DNA from: Periplaneta americana
Taxonomy: Eukaryota; Arthropoda; Insecta; Blattodea; Blattidae
Assembly: GCF_040183065.1 (NCBI RefSeq)
Contig: NC_091117.1
Span: forward strand, 100,443,001-100,507,000
Direction of reading: 5' to 3'
DNA length: 64,000 nucleotides
Shown here: positions 32,519-59,500 of the stretch, piece by piece
Layout of the letters: every line of letters begins with the position of its first letter
Numbering within the stretch: position 1 is the first letter of the stretch
Notes under the pieces: model-generated
Databases searched by the model: none
What the model saw: only the letters and a program-made list of their open reading frames with translations
What the model was told of the DNA's origin: nothing
Program-made: the position numbers and the translations under genes

Positions 32519-35451
32519 TCAATTCACAAGCATAAACAATTCATCAATTGTGTAGAAGGTATGAGTATGTAGAAATTTGGTTAATTCTTTTCTGAACCTT
32601 TTCTCGTTGTTCTTCAAATCTTTAAGATAATTAGGCAGTGCATTGAAGACTGTTATACATGAATAGCGAACTCCTTTTTTAAAACAGCTTAGACTAACAG
32701 AGGGTAGATGAAGATCTGATTTATGTCTTGTATTAAAATGATGAATGTTTTGATTAGTACTGAATTTATCTTGGTTCTTAATATACAGCATCATTAGGGA
32801 AAGAATGTATTCACAAGGTAAAGTCAAGATTTCTAAGTTTCGGAAAATATTTTTACATGAGGTCCTTTTATGCACACCGGCCATTATTCTTATAGCTTTC
32901 TTTTGTAAAACAAAAACGTGTTTAGCTTCAGACGAGTTACCCCAGAATATTAATCCATATTTCATTACAGAGTGAAAATATGCAAAGTATGACATTTTAA
33001 GTAAGTTTATATCACCAATAGTAGATAAGGATCTTAATGCATAACAGGCAGAGCTCAATTTACGAGTAATACATTCTATATGCGTTTTCCAGTTCAAGTG
33101 ATTATCCAATTCTAAACCAAGAAACTTCGTGCTTATAGATTCTTTGAGATGAGTTCCATTTGATCGAATACTGTAGGAAACCTGAGCACTATTGTGTGTA
33201 CTAAATTTGACTGCACTGGTTTTATCAACATTAAGTGCTAGTTTATTTGCATGGAACCATTCATTCATTAGATTCAGCACTGTATTAGAAGTGTTTATAA
33301 AATGATCGTATTATTTGCTTGAAATAATTACACTTGTATCATCTGCAAATAAAATTACATGGGATGAATTGTTTATGGTCAAGGCTAAATCATTAATATA
33401 AACTAGAAACAACAATGGACCTAAAATTGACCCCTGCGGAACACCATGTTTAATATTTCTAAATTCTGAATAAGTAACTTTATGACTATTTGGTACATTT
33501 ATTTCTACTTTTTGTTTTCTATTTGATAAGTACGATGTAAACCAACCCAACATCTCATCTTTAATACCATAATACTTCAATTTTTTTACTAATATACTAT
33601 GGTCTACACAATCAAATGCTTTAGCCAAGTCACAAAAAATCCCACCTACATGCAGTTTCGAATTTAATGAATTTAATATTTCATCCACCAAACTAAAAGC
33701 AGCATTCTCTGTCGATTTTTGTTTTCTAAATCCAAACTGTTCTAAAACTAATATATTGTTGGACTCCAGGTAATGATATAATCTATTATACATAACTTTC
33801 TCAAACACTTTTGAAAATGTTGTTAATAATGATATGGGTCTGTAATTAGCAATAGTACATTTATCTCCCTTTTTGTATATTGGTTTTACTATTGAATATT
33901 TGAGTCTTTCTGGAAAAATACCACATTGCATTGACAAATTACATAGATAGCTTAACGGAGGGGATAATATTTCAGAACAAGCTTCAGAACTTTACTTGGA
34001 ATTTCATCATATTCAGAGGAATATTTTGTTTTTAGTTGTTTTATCACATGCATGATTTCTGCTGCGGTAGTGGGAATAAATTTGAGACCTAAAAACTCAG
34101 TGTTAAATGCATCAGTTAGGTAACCAAGTGCAGCATCTTCTGCACAATCTTGAATGTTTAAGTTCTGAATAATATTTATATAGAAGTCGTTAAAATGATT
34201 TGCAATTGATTTTGAGTTATCTATTTTACTATCATTGATTTTAATGCAAGTAATATTTTCACTCTTTGAATATCGATTAGTTTCATTTTTAATAATATCC
34301 CAAATAGTTTTAATCTTATTATCTGAATTTTGTATTTTTTCATTCAGATACATTTTCTTTGCATCTTTTATAACTTTTGTCAAAGTTTTACAGTAATTCT
34401 TGTAGTAATTAAGAACATGAGGATCATCACTATTCCTACTCATTAAATATAGATTCCTTTTTCTAGCACATGATATTTTAATTCCCTGAGTTATCCACAT
34501 GTTTTTACTTTTACATTTTTTCACCACCTTGACTGGAAAACATTCATTGAAATAATTCGTAAATGTAGTGAAAAATGCATTAAATTTAGTATTAATATCA
34601 ATGGTATCGGTACTATATACATTTTCCCAAGATTCAGTTTGTAGACATGTATTTAAATGACGAAGAGATTCAGCATTTATAATCCTTTTTTTTATTTTTA
34701 GATTAACACTTTGGAATTTTTCACTCATATTGAAAACACTTAGAATTTGTGCATCGTGATCAGACAGGCCATTGACTAATGGTACTGTTGAATAGGAATT
34801 CAATCTACTTTTATCTATAAATATATTATCAATGGCAGTACTACTTCCAGCTTGTGTTCTGGTTGGAAAACTTACTGTGTGACTAAGATTATAAGTTTCA
34901 AGAAGTGAGTTTAATTTTCTTTTACGTGAGCTTTCTGATAGATAATCTATGTTTATGTCACCACAGATTACAAATTCGGTATGTGGTTTATAAAGTCTTT
35001 TCAATAATGAATCTAAGTTAGTTGTAAATTTCTTATAATCTCCCATTGGCGCCCTATAAACACATAAGATAATTAAATTTGATATCTCATAACCAATTTG
35101 TATTCCACAGATTTCAATATCTTGTTCAAGGCAAAAATCAGATATATCAATTTTACTAAATAATAGATCCTCTCTGATAAAAATACAGGCACCCCCTTTT
35201 TGGAAGACATGTCTACAGAAATGAGAACCTAATACATATCCATGTAAAGACAGTTGTAGTATTTCCTGTTGCTTCATATGATGTTCAGTTATACATAATA
35301 TCTGAGGTTTATGCTTTTGAGTTGCTAAAGAAGTGATCAATTCATCAGTTTTTTGTTTTAATCCCCTAATATTTTGATGAAAAATAGTGAAGTTACTGTG
35401 TTCATTACTAGAAACATCAGAGCATTTGCAATTTAGTTGAACTTGTTTCAA
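32519..35451 (-). pseudogene. CR1/L2-like LINE ORF2, endonuclease plus reverse transcriptase
   Basis: 35451-33952 is open: MKQVQLNCKCSDVSSNEHSN, then endonuclease motifs FHQNIRGLKQKTDEL, CITEHHMKQ, FVICGDINIDYL and GLSDHDAQIL. A one-base shift near 33945 leads to 33937-33311: GIFPERLKYSIVKPIYKKG, NYRPISLLTTFSKVFEKVM, EQFGFRKQKST, FCDLAKAFDCVDHSIL, GVPQGSILGPLLFLVYINDL and ILFADDTSVIISS (catalytic Asp pair). An in-frame TAA (33311-33313) precedes the thumb part 33280-32519 (KFLGLELDNHLNWKTHI). Only two lesions, so the element is fairly young. Confidence 0.87.
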
Positions 35452-35471
35452 ACACCTTACTGGTGGGAGGT

Positions 35472-36530
35472 TTAACCTAAAAAAGGAGAAGCCCTAGCAT
35501 TAACTAACACAGGAATATTACAACTCTGCTTTTTAACATGGCTGCCTCTGATGCTATTAGTAATAAGAACCGAAAGGTGCTCCTTGCCTCTACCATTCAG
35601 ATGCAGGCCATGTGACGTATATTCATACCTTCTTATAGGGCTTACATCTATCAAACCAATGTGTGATGCCCCAGGTCTCATCAGAGCCCGCTCAAGCCGC
35701 ATATTCACGCTCCGCACCCTCCTGTGAAGATACGGCTTGTCGTACCTGCTGAAAAGACTGAGAAATCCCACATTGGTATGGCTGCTCATCTCAATTATGT
35801 TGTTGACATCTTTCTCAATAGAATAGTTACAATCGTTATCAATACTATTACCTGGCCCACCCACTATAACTACATGATCCCTCTTAGAAAATTCTGAACT
35901 CAATTTCATCATATCCTCAACAACATTCTTGAGAGGAGCATTAGGCTTACATACACTAGATACTTCAAACTCATCGCCCAGTTTCGACTTCAAAAGTGAG
36001 GAAATACCTCTTGCATGGCTGCTTCCTAAAATCAATACTTTACTCCTACAATCATTAACCTTATCTGTTTTCTGACTTACCTTTACTAGTGTCGATACTG
36101 GGTCTGAGTTCTCCTGATCAACATTCATTGCTTGAAGAGCACTGAATTTGTTGGTCAGTTTGATTGATGCAGCATCATCCGCAGAGAAACGTCTACTCCT
36201 AGATTTGGAATTCTTCGGTTTCATCCAAGTGTGAGATCTCTCTTTATTCGAAACACTAATGCTATCCTTCAAAGCTCTCAATTTATTAATTTCACACTTT
36301 GCCTCATCTAATTCCAATTCTAGGGCTCTGATTCTCTCCAGTTGATCGCGCATCTTTCTATCATATATACAATCACTACATTCCCAACTACCTTTGTCAA
36401 CAAAATTATCAGGATCTATATCTATACATTTCCAATGAAAACAGAAATTACAATTATTACATACCAATCCTTTCACTACAATCCTTCTACAACTACGACA
36501 GTTTCCAGACAGAGCAGCCATAGCACACAT
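35472..36530 (-). CDS. CR1/L2-like LINE ORF1 with zinc finger and SGNH-hydrolase domain
   Basis: An intact 352-codon frame. Residues about 11-55 form a PHD/RING-like Cys-rich finger (CRSC, CNNCNFCFHWKC, CSDC). About 65-90 is a heptad-like coiled coil (LERIRALELELDEAKCEI). From about 165 an SGNH/GDSL-type domain: nucleophile block KVLILGSSHARG, GGPGNSID, and the His block HGLHLNGRGK. ORF1 proteins of this kind bind RNA and self-associate; the esterase fold is known in CR1-group ORF1s but its role is uncertain. The block before GLHLN has SH where relatives often have an acidic residue, so the triad may be imperfect. ORF2 starts 20 bp downstream. Confidence 0.85.
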   Translation of the reverse strand: MCAMAALSGNCRSCRRIVVKGLVCNNCNFCFHWKCIDIDPDNFVDKGSWECSDCIYDRKMRDQLERIRALELELDEAKCEINKLRALKDSISVSNKERSHTWMKPKNSKSRSRRFSADDAASIKLTNKFSALQAMNVDQENSDPVSTLVKVSQKTDKVNDCRSKVLILGSSHARGISSLLKSKLGDEFEVSSVCKPNAPLKNVVEDMMKLSSEFSKRDHVVIVGGPGNSIDNDCNYSIEKDVNNIIEMSSHTNVGFLSLFSRYDKPYLHRRVRSVNMRLERALMRPGASHIGLIDVSPIRRYEYTSHGLHLNGRGKEHLSVLITNSIRGSHVKKQSCNIPVLVNARASPFLG

Positions 36531-44470: not shown

Positions 44471-47115
44471 ATGCTTTCCAAACACAGAGGACTAAACATC
44501 TTAAATTTCAATGCCAATGGAATAATCCACCAGACTTACGAACTACAAGCCTTGCTCTTTAATTATGATATTGACCTCGCATGTATTAGTGAAACTCATC
44601 TAAAACCCACTATAAAATTTCGTGTACGCAACTATACTGTTATCCGTGCAGATAGAAGCAACCGACCTGGAGGAGGAACTGCTATACTCATTAAAAATTC
44701 CATACCATATCGAACAGCCATTCTACCGATTTTTCAGAATCTTGAAGCACTGGTGTATTCATCCAGCTTGAAGGAACAGAAATACTCATAGCATCTGTTT
44801 ATTACCCGCCATACGCTCAACTCAATGAAAATGACCTGACCCTGCTTATCACACATCACAAACATTTCATTTTCTGTGGTGATCTCAATGCAAAACATAA
44901 ATCATGGAATTCTAGACTGAATACTCCGAAAGGTAAAACTTTGTTATTACATTCCAATAAATTTCATTACTCAATTACAGGACCAAAAGCACCTACAAGA
45001 TTTCCCTGGATAACCACTCATCATCCAGATGTACTTGATATTTGTTTATGTAACACAAAATATTCCCCGGTTCAACAAATCTGCTTAAACGCTCTTGACT
45101 CCGACCATATTCCAGTACTTCTGACTTTCAAGGCCCCTTTCCATATGATATCAGATCAATCTTCTACAGAAAAAGTTACAGATTGGAATGGCTTCACAAA
45201 ACGCTTGCACCAAATCATCCCAGGTACTCTACCGACTTTAAAAACTTCAGAAATAGAAACTGCTATAAAAATATTTTCAGACACTATCATAGACACTTTC
45301 GATGAAATGTCCTCCACATTGACTTTTGAGAAATCAGATAACAACGCTTATGGTAAAAATGAACTAAAATATCTTCTTAAAGCCAAAAACCAAGCTCGAA
45401 AACGGTGGCAACTTTATGCGGATCCTCAAGCAAAAAGAGCTTTTTATCGGTATCAACGTGCTATCCGAAGAAAATATGAACTTTACAAAATCAATAAGTT
45501 TGCCGACACAGTGGAAAACATAAAGCCTACAGGAAAAACCTTTTGGTCGTTTACAAAACGAATGTTAGGAAAATCTATCACAAAAAATTCAACACCTATT
45601 AAAGACTCAAGTGGTACATTTAACTATGATCCCATTGATAGGCTTGAAGCTCTTGCAAACTCCTTTCAAAACCGATTCTCCTCCCATCATCTCTCTTCGC
45701 TACAAGACTTTTCAACAACAATATCGCAACATGTACAGTCCATATTACATCCTCCTGAACCGGGAAATGCACCTCACGTACGACCACAAGAAATCAAGAT
45801 CATAATTCGAAATCTAGCACCGAAGAAGACACCTGGTCCGGATAAAATCACACCAGCCATACTGAAGAAATTACCAAAAAGAGCAATAACACATTTAACG
45901 AAGATACTCAACTCATGTCTACATCATAATTATTTTCCAACAGCATGGAAAACAGCACATATTATACCAATTGTTAAACCGGGAAAAGATCCAACATTAC
46001 CCCAAAGTTATAGACCAATGAGCCTAACCAACTTCCTTGGAAAAATTTTTGAACGTATCATTCTGGCACGACTAAAGCCATATTTAACTGCACCAGATGT
46101 CATCCACCAAGAACAGTTTGGATTTAAACCCCACCATAGTCCCAGAGAAGCACTTCACAGATTAACAACATCCGTTCAAAGAGGATTTCAACTTGGACAA
46201 CATACAGTAGCTACATTTATCGACATTCAGCAAGCTTTTGATACTGTCTGGCACACTGGTTTATTATATAAACTTCACAATCTTAACATTCCTATAAATT
46301 ATATTCAACTTATCGCCAGCTACCTTTCAGATAGAACTTTTCGTGTTCAAAACGGACGCTGTCTCTCAAACGCTCACGTCATAACAGCAGGAGTTCCTCA
46401 AGGATCAGTTTTAAGCCCAACACTGTACTGTGCATATGTCCGTGATATACCAATTCATCCAAAATGTAAACTTACACTATACGCTGATGATACTGTTATT
46501 TATACGAAGCATATAAACATTCATTTTGCTTGTCTACAAATGCAGGAAGCCTTAAACATTATTACCCAATGGTCCACAAAATGGCGTCTTAAGATAAATG
46601 GCTCCAAGTCGCAAGCAGTTGTTTTCAGAAGAAGATTTCCGCTGCAATCACAACCCTTAACCATTCAAAATGAAAATATACCTTTCACAACTACCGTCAA
46701 GTATCTTGGAGTTTTTCTTGATAAGAGACTTAATTTCAAACATCATGTCTTACATATTCGTGAGAAGGCCTTCCAACGATATATGCTTCTTTACTCATTT
46801 TTCAAGAGCTATACATCTTTAAATGTTAAAACCATGTTGTACAAAGTTCTAGTTCGATCCTACATGACATTCTGTTGTGAAATATGGCCTCAAGCAAATC
46901 CGCGACATCTTCAACGACTGGACGGACTTCAACGAGCCATCTGCCGAACCATCACTGGAGCGGACTATCTCATTCGAAATAGCCAACTGTACGACGATCT
47001 TGGCATACTGTACTTCTCAGCTTATATCAAAACTCTTCGTATAAAATTTCTAACATCCCTCCATAAACATCCAAACCCACTAATAAGTAAAAATATACCG
47101 GTTCCTTTTACATGA
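44471..47115 (+). pseudogene. L-B ORF2, endonuclease and reverse transcriptase, one frameshift
   Basis: Endonuclease: LNILNFNANGI, CISETHLKP, GGGTAILIKN (frame 44471-44791). A base is missing near 44752 compared with L-A (GCACTGG versus GCCACTGG), after which the frame continues: SVYYPPYAQLN and CGDLNAKHKSWNS. The open frame to 47115 gives DSDHIPVLLTF, then RT motifs TPGPDKITPAILKKLP, QSYRPMSLTNFLGKIFER, EQFGFKPHHSPRE, TFIDIQQAFDTVWHTGLL, AGVPQGSVLSPTLYCAYV and TLYADDTVIYTKH (catalytic YADD), then the thumb KYLGVFLDKRLNFKHHV. Except for the shift, all motifs are intact, so L-B is the youngest large element here. Confidence 0.92.
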
Positions 47116-55744: not shown

Positions 55745-56452
55745 GCTAGACCTATTATTACCACTACTACTAGGTCTTAATACCACTACTGCTAACTAGG
55801 TCTCATTACTACTACTAGGCCTACTAATACCACCAAAACTAGGCCTACTATTACCACTACTACTACGCCTACTAATACTACCAAAACTAGGCCTCCTATT
55901 ACCATTACTACTAGGCCTATTACCACTACTACTACTCCTACTATTCCCACTACTACTACTCCTACTATTACCAATATTACTAGGTCTACTATTACCACTA
56001 CTACTAGATCTACTATTACCACTACTACTAGGCCTACTATTGCCACAAAAACTAGACCTACTACTACCACTACTACTACACCTACTACTAGGCCTACTAT
56101 TACCACTAGGCCTACTATTACCACCACTACTAGGCCTACTATTACCAACACTACTAGGCCTACTATTACCACCACTACTAGGCCTACTATTACCACCACT
56201 ACTAGGCCTACTATTACCACCACTTCTAGGCATACTATTACAACTACTGCTAGTCCTATTATTACCAATACTACTAGGCCTACTAATACTACAAAAACTA
56301 GGCCTCGTATTACCATTACTACTACGTCTATTACCACTACTACTAGGTCTACTATTACCACTACTACTAGGCCTACTATTACCACTACTACTAGGATTAC
56401 TATTACCACTACTCCTAGGCCTACTATTACCGCTACTAATTATCTGTACTGA
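55745..56452. repeat. Minisatellite, about 24-bp units
   Basis: Roughly 29 variants of ctactattaccactactact + aggc over about 700 bp. 24 is divisible by 3, so frames stay open in both strands (Leu/Pro/Gly-rich and Ser/Asn/Gly-rich), which gives false proteins. Contains many AGGCCT palindromes. Confidence 0.93.
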
Positions 56453-57040
56453 TCTCTAACTTGGTGGTCATCAACTACACAATGAATAAATTGTTTTATG
56501 ATAAAATTTATTCTCATTATATTTTAAATCAGTTTCCAGAATTTTTATGATCTCATATTTCAGCACTAAATATTTTCTAAGCACCATATACCTTCCTCTT
56601 CCTTTGCATGAAAGAACTGAAATATAGATAATTTTAAATATTACAGTAAATATCCATTATTTTGTCCTTAAAACTATACTAGTAATATTGAAAATTAATG
56701 TTGACATTGCCATTATTCAATATTTCACATACTTATTCCGAGTGTATATGGGTGATGTAATTTATTTTTTAGAATATCGCCAAAGATATAATACTTTAAT
56801 AAATATAGCGCTCCTCTGCCATTCATGTTTATTTCATCACGACTCATTCTTTGTAAAAGATTTTTAAAACAGTGTCTATCACCAGGCTACATCAATGTAT
56901 TGTGGTACTGTTTTCGAATTTCGCGCCGCAAACACTCCCTTTAATGGCGGATGCTAGCCAGTTCAATTTGTGACATTTTTCTTGCCTGCCACTCACGGGT
57001 ATGTGTCTCTAGTAAGTATTACAAACTCTTTGAGTGAAAC

Positions 57041-57455
57041 TAAGATGGTGTTTGGATAAGCTTCAGGGCTTCTACCGCGTTGTCTTGGTGTTATTGGCTG
57101 ACGTTTCGACCGCTGTGTTGTGGCCATCTTCAGAGCAGTTGTTGGATAAGGAAATAGTCTGCCAGTATAGTAGTCTCGATGGGGGGAGTACTTACTGTGA
57201 TAGGTCGTAGGTTCTCCTTATGGCATCTGATTGGTCCTACGTGGTCCAATCCGGTTGAGGTCTGTATGAAGGGGAGTATTCATATTAAATACTGGCCCTC
57301 ATAAGGTCCGAAAGAATGACCGTGATACCGTGCCCGTTGTCCGGATGAAGGGGAGGGCGCCGCGTACATGTGGAGACCTGGTTTCTCGTTCCTAAGTTTA
57401 GGTTGTAGGTTCTTCTGGTATCTGCTTTGTCTACGTGGTCCAACGTTTTTAATTT
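57041..57455 (-). mobile_element. Penelope-like terminal segment (solo)
   Basis: Starts at the right duplication of the P-like element. It contains the sequence ctgaagatggccacaacaca...ggtcgaaacgtc (minus strand), recalled as conserved in Penelope-like retroelement terminal repeats, followed by duplicated tccgg/ggtcctacgtggtccaa words (57228-57248, 57435-57445). No reverse transcriptase or GIY-YIG coding was seen, so it is a terminal fragment. Boundaries are approximate. Confidence 0.5.
57097..57136 (-). ncRNA. Hammerhead-ribozyme-like core
   Basis: Minus-strand order: GCU (57136-57134), CUGAAGA (57133-57127, fits CUGANGA), stem II UGGCC (57126-57122) with GGUC (57111-57108), GAAAC (57107-57103), GUC (57102-57100), AGC (57099-57097). 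Stem II makes four pairs; stem I at least three (GCU/AGC). Stem III is the tiny palindrome ACGU, as reported for Penelope-like hammerheads that act as dimers. Cleavage would follow the C of GUC. Confidence 0.6.
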
Positions 57456-57459
57456 GAAG

Positions 57460-59500
57460 GGCAGAAACTTCTAAAGGATCTTATTGCATTATGGAATATG
57501 ATTGTCAGTCTACATACTAATGTATAAAAATTTTATTTATTAATTATTACAGCATAAATATACATTTAGTGTTCAATACACTCCTTCATAAACGTCACAG
57601 ATATAGGCATTACAGCAACAAGAACTTAATAAATTACAGGTAACAAATGGAAACAACAAAGCTGCAAATAAAATAACAATAAATCTAAACATTTCCAACT
57701 GCATTCCTCGTGCAAACTCTCCGGCTTCCACATATAAGGGGACACTATACTGAAATTTCTCGAAGTTCATTAGTTTTAAGAGTTCACAATAATGAAATCA
57801 ATAACTACCATACTTACGAAGCTAGATTCACCAAATATTGATCACTGGTATATCTGCTTAATAGTGACAAGTGTACAAAATTGCATCCGCCTATGATACG
57901 TGGTTAGGATTTCATTAATTATTTTATTAAAATATTGAACCGTTTTATATAAAAAGTCGCTTGCACTACAATTGGCATTATTCTTAAGTGATTTTCACTT
58001 ATATGGATTCTTACATACATGGAATCAAAGCCTACTATAGGGGTTTATTGTAAAATTAATCAGTAAATTACTAGAATTTTTATTATAAAAAATAAAAAAA
58101 AATAATATTCATAAAATTTCCTAGAAATTTTCCCATTCGCTATGCAGAACATTCCAATAATAATGTTTGTTCCAATGTATATAAAGAATCATATAAGTGA
58201 ATATCAATTAAAAATAATGTAAATTGTGACGCAAGGGACTTTTTGTATAAAGCAATACAATATTATTATTTTAAAGTTATTAATGACATGCAAACCACTT
58301 ATCATAGAGAGAAGAAATTTTGTACATTAACCAGATATACTAGTGATAAACATTTTGTGAATATAGCTTTAAAAATATGGAAGTTAGTAATTTCAGTACA
58401 ATGTCCCCAAGGATACACTGATGTGAGATTGTGTCATTTTTGGTCGAAAAATCGTTTCATTTTTATCTTTAAAAATTCATTTTTGGTCTAAAAAGCGCTG
58501 TGCCAATTTTCATGACCATACGACCGGTCTATCAGCTGTTTAGGGTCACATTTTTAAAAGGCTGCGGGCTCCACTCTGAATTCTGCGACCATTTTGGAAA
58601 TTACGCTATATTTCATACATTATTTATTATATTAGATTTCCGATTGAGCCAGTGTAGCTATTCGACTTTGAGAAATATTTCTTCATAGAATCCAACAGGT
58701 GTTAGGGCTACTTTAAAGGCTGCTTTCCTTTAAAAGATATTCAGTTACAAAGGAGAGCACAACTCTTGTCTAAAGGAAAATTCCACTTGTTGCTAGTAGC
58801 CATAAAAACGTGTTTTCCATGCTTGGTTTTTGTTTGTGGTACAAGAAATATTTGCAAGTTTCTAAAAGTTTTATTGTTAGTGTTATAATAGTGTGTACAG
58901 TCTATAGTGATTTGTAAATAATATTTATATATTATAGTGTTTTCTTAAGTTTACATAGTTTTTTTTAGTCATCTTTATTTACTAGTGTAGGTTAGGTGTG
59001 CACAGCGTGGTAGTGTGTATAAGGGTAAGTTCTGTATATAATATGCTAGGTCTATATGTTTCAAAATGCCCAGAAAATAAAAAAGACAGAGACCTGGTTC
59101 ATTATCATCATCCTAAACTTTGAAGTCAATTTTTTCCACTTTAATTTTCTGTAAATTTTGCATTGCTGAAAATTCTACTCTTTCTACAGATTGTGTACTA
59201 CATGCATAATATTTTGTAGAGGCTTTTGAATTTGTTCTTAACAAAACTTACTATCAGGGTTATACCTAACACTCACATTTTTGTTGTTGTTTAGTCAACT
59301 GTCCGAAGACAGGTTTGAACCTCATAAGTACCACCAATATGGCATCACTCATGAAACAACTAGGCAGTAGATAATGTGATAGGGTGACCAGTTCCTTTCC
59401 CCCTCCATGCATACTTTACCAATTAACTACATATTCCACTAATCAGATTTCAGATGCATACGAACAATTGTTCTTCCTCTGACACATATCGTCAAGTGAG
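57460..59500. other. No gene recognised
   Basis: AT-rich. Short frames at 57770-57573 (minus, with a hydrophobic FIVILFAALLFPFVTCNLL segment) and 58243-58491 (plus) have no known relatives in my reading. No repeat proof. Could hold unique host DNA. Confidence 0.5.

Follow-up and report, generated by a model that had tools for sequence, protein, structure and literature searches.

In the genome of Periplaneta americana, we found what is very probably a minimal type I hammerhead motif of the kind known from Penelope-like elements (PLEs), located on the minus strand at positions 57136–57097 in a solitary, 5'-truncated copy of a PLE pseudo-LTR. Positions refer to the window, i.e., the whole analysed stretch of 64,000 nucleotides (64 kb; contig NC_091117.1). 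Many sister copies of this segment form head-to-head pairs that combine, in 48 of the 49 pairs classified, one short and one long 3' end. The association of hammerheads with PLEs is itself already known.

The hammerhead core and its element copy

Read 5' to 3', the minus strand at 57136–57097 is GCT CTGAAGA T GGCC ACAACACAGC GGTC GAAACGTC AGC and contains all hammerhead boxes in type I order, with the CUGANGA box, GAAA and the NUH cleavage triplet following one another. Stem I, of 3 bp, is formed by GCU (GCT in DNA; 57134–57136) and AGC (57097–57099), and stem II, of 4 bp including one G·U pair, by GGCC (57122–57125) and GGUC (GGTC; 57108–57111). The catalytic box CUGAAGA (57127–57133) is invariant in an alignment of 20 sequences described below and is followed, before stem II, by an extra U (T in DNA; 57126), which creates an ATG with its neighbours. 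The GAAACGTC block (57100–57107) holds ACGU and the GUC triplet (57100–57102), after which hammerhead chemistry predicts a cut between 57100 and 57099. Thus, the preliminary description of this DNA, which listed CUGAAGA, a 4-bp stem II, GAAAC, GUC and a GCU/AGC stem I in the right order on the minus strand, can be read directly from the sequence. Its further proposal, ACGU as a tiny palindromic stem III, stands in part: the palindrome is present (57101–57104, minus strand), replacing helix III by a few bases (GAA-ACGU-C), but it is loopless and cannot form a hairpin, so that pairing would be possible only with another copy. ACGU is identical in 20/20 aligned rows, an invariance that gives no covariation evidence because the rows were retrieved by a pattern that includes it.

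The architecture agrees, as had been claimed, with that described for PLEs: minimal type I hammerheads without helix III are reported for these elements in the accessible parts of PMC6155905 and PMC7761336. The likeness comprises the core, the open stem I, the lack of helix III, the place in a pseudo-LTR and the thousands of copies; in a comparison made through portions of reviews, no basic difference was seen, stems and loops being family-specific.

Covariance-model searches for a hammerhead, which had been suggested as a check, gave a divided result. None of the 4,227 Rfam models yielded a hammerhead at gathering score anywhere in the window, and at E-values up to 10 the four matches in 56500–57700 all belonged to non-hammerhead families. 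In contrast, a model trained on nine sequences, all from families other than that of the window copy (family A), found this site as its sole match in the 64 kb (57141–57092, minus strand; 34.3 bits, E = 2.7e-6, the E-values being rough). We suppose that the standard Rfam models miss the minimal PLE form. The match of our model does not test the stems alone, since the shared core, itself used as the search pattern, presumably supplies much of the score.

The motif is part of a family-A pseudo-LTR copy of ~397 bp with a short 3' end (57047–57443, minus strand), delimited by homology to 19 other copies that spans 57443 down to about 57047. The 5' boundary is the point where matches begin; the reading of 57443 as a fixed 5' end was dropped, since this is simply where the query copy ends, other copies reaching further. 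Inside the pseudo-LTR, a direct repeat occurs at 57399–57416 and 57201–57218 (minus strand) with a spacing of ~195 bp.

Does this segment belong to a PLE? In the L018 locus, the same pseudo-LTR segment (93.4% identity over 365 positions) starts within the final 100 bp of an open frame of 290 codons, which lies on the same strand and whose 3' part matches the C-terminal part of PLE proteins. In the L063 locus, a head-to-head insertion carries a GIY-YIG sequence (GIYMIPCSCGSKYIGQTGRT, recognised by eye) and then the same pseudo-LTR, with the hammerhead following after a ~820-bp interruption. At both loci, the GIY-YIG C-terminal sequence shares the strand of the pseudo-LTR and runs up to it. Pfam searches gave no match for these two C-termini or for a GIY-YIG-like stretch in L034, and the GIY-YIG assignment of L018 and L063 relies on tblastn matches (E from 6e-8 to 2e-11) to PLE open reading frames (ORFs) found in this genome. 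Such ORFs, of 549–811 aa, are present in the genome: Pfam detected RVT_1 in L059 and L060 and GIY-YIG in L060, which belongs to another family and holds both domains, while the L061 ORF contained neither domain by Pfam, yet is 61% identical to L059 by tblastn. The assignment to a Penelope-like terminal segment is supported by L018 and L063, which place the hammerhead in a PLE pseudo-LTR. Among the copies examined, we found no complete family-A element or ORF. The window copy consists of the pseudo-LTR only, no coding region being left beyond the tail, and is most likely a dead by-product without a function of its own.

On the minus strand, an open frame (57127–57047) begins at the ATG of CTGAAGATG and continues across the tail (MATTQRSKRQPITPRQRGRSPEAYPNT), and its translation is presumed to be the N-terminus of a PLE ORF. 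The best-scoring 150 of the 2,745 first-look candidates all match this frame and contain no internal stop codon. The hammerhead presumably overlaps the ORF start, by analogy with PAc, a Poseidon PLE of Anolis carolinensis, whose ORF begins at stem II, with cleavage 26 bp beyond the start codon (PMC11167929); here, 28 nt separate the A of the ATG from the predicted cut. In Pen2a of Adineta vaga, the pseudo-LTR and tail contain the first 22 codons, according to the part of PMC3846280 available to us.

Other features of the window surround this copy. A palindromic MITE-like element with long imperfect inverted arms, 71–87% complementary, lies at 57738–58408, 295 bp from the PLE copy; a minisatellite with 12/24-bp units (ACTACTAGGCCT...) at 55792–56459 has four reading frames that stay open for more than 210 codons; and long ORFs at 44746–47115 and 33311–35493 resemble, by eye, endonuclease/reverse transcriptase proteins of non-LTR retrotransposons. 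A bacterial promoter scan, ill-suited to a eukaryote, gave as many sites as in shuffles.

Genome-wide copies and covarying stems

The pattern CTGANGAN{4,30}GAAACGTC has one match in the window and was absent from all 100 shuffles. Across the whole genome (3.23 Gb, 91 contigs), the narrower pattern CTGANGAN{4,24}GAAACGTC was found 4,536 times (2,292 + 2,244), compared with 252 occurrences (115 + 137) of a reversed-pattern control. The first 100 pattern sites of contig 1, assigned by eye from their loops, comprise 43 of family A, 40 of family B, 9 of family D and 8 of none of these. Hammerhead-like cores in which GAAAACGTT replaces GAAACGTC and stem II pairs, a form missed by the genome-count pattern, were also seen at L059:3470 (+) and L061:3166 (+), on the strand opposite the nearby PLE ORF.

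The stems I and II of the families differ by compensatory changes. Stem I is GCU/AGC in family A, CCA/UGG in family B and ACC/GGU in family D, while stem II is GGCC or GACC/GGUC in family A, GUCUGC/GCAGAC and GUCUAC/GUAGAC in family B, and GAGGA/UCCUC in family D. Covariation was assessed in an alignment of 20 of the 23 distinct sequences, an omission that favours the structure: L047 and L017, with stems that fail to pair, were excluded as likely chance matches to the pattern, and L050 on account of an insertion. In these 20 rows, 91.1% of the stem cells pair (96.7% in stem I and 88.3% in stem II), and the covariation score is 0.540, compared with 0.200 in shuffles and at most 0.116 for slid partners. 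Cells with changes on both sides number 40, versus 18.0 in shuffles. Such changes affect five of the nine pairs; this count of pairs is not above that in shuffles (5 vs 4.9; 398/500), nor is the number of further pair types (12 vs 10.7; 93/500), and the pair 21–31 is unpaired in 10 of the 20 rows. Covariance among genomic copies, the absence of which the preliminary description had counted as evidence against a ribozyme, is thus observed.

These data allow several other readings of the motif to be weighed. Chance resemblance, which could draw on the shortness of the motif (3 bp in stem I) and on the lack of an Rfam match, is refuted by the genome-wide count of 4,536 versus 252 and is opposed by the existence of families with covarying stems; its probability is practically negligible. 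Might the core be conserved merely as N-terminal coding sequence of the PLE ORF and not as a ribozyme? The motif does read as an open frame from the ATG, and the monomer has no stable fold: the 50-nt RNA folds no better than its shuffles (z 0.04), and, at -4.9, the active monomer fold falls short of the predicted minimum of -8.2. However, the peptides of the families differ, yet the hammerhead box, GAAACGUC and the pairing stems are kept, and the 5' strand of stem I, which lies upstream of the ATG, still covaries, contrary to what a peptide constraint predicts. Since the fixed box and GAAACGUC belong to the search pattern, only the stems count here, and they make a purely coding explanation quite improbable.

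Slightly less probable still is a metazoan retrozyme, i.e., a small non-autonomous element with tandem type I hammerheads and a circular RNA. The small size, the many copies and the type I hammerhead in small repeated elements are shared with retrozymes, PLEs are suspected as their movers in the accessible part of PMC7229834, and one 56-bp tandem array exists elsewhere in the genome (L085). Retrozymes are recognised by tandem repeats of 150–450 bp, each with a type I hammerhead, but the window holds one motif without tandem hammerhead repeats, close neighbours are mostly inverted, head to head, and PLE copies that carry GIY-YIG sequence end, on their 3' side, in the same segment. We therefore retain the reading as a hammerhead of a PLE pseudo-LTR.

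Whether such a motif would act as a monomer or as a dimer was considered by means of folding energies. For the window sequence, the double hammerhead (-10.3) is not clearly preferred by this simple calculation to two active monomers (-9.8), and the best dimer fold reaches -27.5. The covariance model finds a single hammerhead motif in the window, so a dimer would need a second RNA; close neighbours elsewhere in the genome are mainly inverted rather than tandem. According to the parts of two reviews available to us (PMC6466107, PMC7761336), PLE motifs are able to cleave as dimers. L085 (G000:C1:72051250-72051850) offers a naturally occurring tandem that could allow dimers in cis: four head-to-tail 56-bp units at about 243–466, each with a complete family-B2 hammerhead, sit in one arm of a head-to-head pair.

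Head-to-head pairs and their two ends

In a set of 100 consecutive sites, neighbours no more than 1.5 kb apart are arranged as -/+ in 24 cases, +/- in 2 and +/+ in 3; the last two classes and three of the -/+ pairs fall in two local arrays. In 29/29 close neighbour pairs, both members belong to one family. The dominant -/+ orientation means that close copies lie head to head, with their 3' ends outward. Longer PLE copies, too, seem to insert in this way: among the 108 GIY-YIG matches listed, all nine neighbour pairs within 5 kb are -/+ and 0.7–4.2 kb apart, as in the pair G000:C12:28904562 (-) / 28906153 (+). Between the two arms of one family-A pair, a 919-aa non-LTR reverse transcriptase-like ORF was observed (L064:1445-4201, minus strand); it is probably a later nested insertion, and part of its sequence recurs in L014.

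Family-A arms end either at ...TATCCACACACC (short end, ~81 nt after the A of the ATG) or ~32 nt further on at ...CTACGCGAACA (long end, ~113 nt after it), and families B1, B2 and D share this two-end design with different sequences. Pairs of one short and one long end make up 36/37 in family A, 6/6 in B1, 4/4 in B2 and 2/2 in D; no pair is short + short or long + long, and the sole exception, L082, is short + intermediate. The left arm carries the long end in 19 pairs, the right arm in 29. The census covered 69 loci, some without such an element, after removal of nine loci overlapping an earlier one; the loci were picked by similarity, position or known pairing and never by end type, although one similarity query contained the window copy's own short end. 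In the consecutive 100-site set, 21 of the 24 -/+ pairs are short + long. The other three form the L086 array and stand outside the 49 pairs, their minus arms ending at neither site and their plus arms being unmatched by the tail search. In this array (G000:C1:23047400-23048450), inverted hammerhead pairs recur with a 317-bp period, and the arms end at sites other than the short and the long one. Sixteen arms are solitary, seven of them short, five long and four other (including three L086 arms).

Exact repeats of at least 8 bases flank 37 of the 43 pairs with a recognisable hammerhead in both arms, versus 1.3% of 1,806 mismatched flank pairings, and the median repeat length is 12 in pairs and 4 in mismatched pairings. 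Pseudo-LTR, tail, inverted arrangement and short target duplication are thus all found in sister copies. For the short-ended window copy itself, neither a partner arm nor, by eye, a target duplication was detected in the flanks; both have perhaps been lost since.

Compared with its partner, the short-ended arm is longer in 23 pairs, shorter in 12 and within 5 nt in 13 (n = 48), these lengths being limited by the references used. Within-pair arm identity exceeds the between-pair median in 15 of 31 family-A pairs, with means of 0.965 and 0.956, respectively. The fold z-scores of the long tails are -1.13, -0.38, 1.10 and 1.48 in the four families; the family-A long tail folds to a 4-bp hairpin with an 8-nt loop near its end, and no hairpin common to the long tails of the four families was demonstrated.

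Integration and the role of the ribozyme

How could each insertion acquire one end of each kind? We give about even weight to the idea that two coupled cDNA starts, one per DNA strand, take place in every insertion. The near-strict pairing of short and long ends implies that the two starts are not independent; neither an independent choice of start sites nor a simple fold-back would explain it. In transcripts of source elements, the motif would cut after GUC, either alone, as an ACGU dimer, or aided by the PLE protein as reported for PAc, and copies containing the hammerhead would stem from RNA templates left uncut at the motif. The PLE protein would start cDNA synthesis on each DNA strand, using the short template site for one and the long site for the other, and both strands of the staggered target would be extended, as for PAc in vitro (PMC11167929). 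The coupled starts would use two fixed, different RNA sites ~32–37 nt apart, just downstream of the hammerhead, and the rule could be explained by asymmetric binding of a protein dimer to a single RNA structure or by a reaction in two ordered steps. The hammerhead, for its part, may free the 5' end of the unit within longer transcripts.

Alternatively, head-to-head pairs could be produced by fold-back self-priming of one cDNA instead of two priming events. Head-to-head junctions are common here, and fold-back has been proposed for rotifer Penelope elements from junction palindromes, as stated in the accessible part of PMC3846280. By our reasoning, however, it is expected to leave the two arms with identical ends and very similar sequences, while the ends differ in 48/49 pairs and within-pair identity beats the between-pair median in just 15/31, a comparison that later mutation could blur. 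We thus regard fold-back as unlikely and favour two priming events.

Since most copies were retrieved via the motif, our sampling would overlook any that begin at the cut. In the tail search, 3 of 98 arms start downstream of the beginning of GAAACGTC, at tail positions 7 (L049), 40 (L028) and 62 (L025). The long-tailed plus arm of L049, near 1628, begins within two bases of the predicted cut; it may have been copied from cut RNA, or its position may be fortuitous.

The closest parallel is PAc, for which two RNA-internal starts of reverse transcription, an optional tail and the cutting and extension of both DNA strands have been described; the main start is at 111–118, and the tail is the stretch between the two start sites (PMC11167929). 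The long end at ~113 nt in our copies is near this main start, and the hammerhead lies over the ORF start in PAc and presumably also here. Unlike PAc, which showed no strand difference in start site in vitro, the insertions studied here have one end of each kind in 48/49 cases, although the strand bearing each end varies. The Penelope elements of A. vaga, as far as the accessible text of PMC3846280 goes, are similar in their pseudo-LTRs that include the first ORF codons, their inverted pseudo-LTRs, most commonly head to head, a ~31-bp tail on one inverted pseudo-LTR, and short target duplications. There, the tail is called optional and the set of copies is small, whereas here 49 pairs from four families follow the short + long rule almost without exception; the words "hammerhead" and "ribozyme" are absent from that text. 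A literature search combining hammerhead with cockroach or Periplaneta returned no paper on cockroach PLE hammerheads, and in the part of the ribozyme paper PMC7936874 available to us a cockroach is named only as a genome without type III motifs. The short + long rule may nevertheless be known already, as most subscription papers, including a survey cited for tails, lie outside this search.

As regards the ribozyme itself, P. americana is a further host genome for an association that is already well described. However, the copy number in this genome is sufficient for the integration reaction to be read from the insertions. The combination of short and long ends with ~12-bp duplications bears on the way in which PLEs make use of the two DNA strands and of a start site inside the RNA. 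Moreover, the many copies running through an intact hammerhead suggest that uncut RNA is a usual template, in agreement with the PAc results in vitro.
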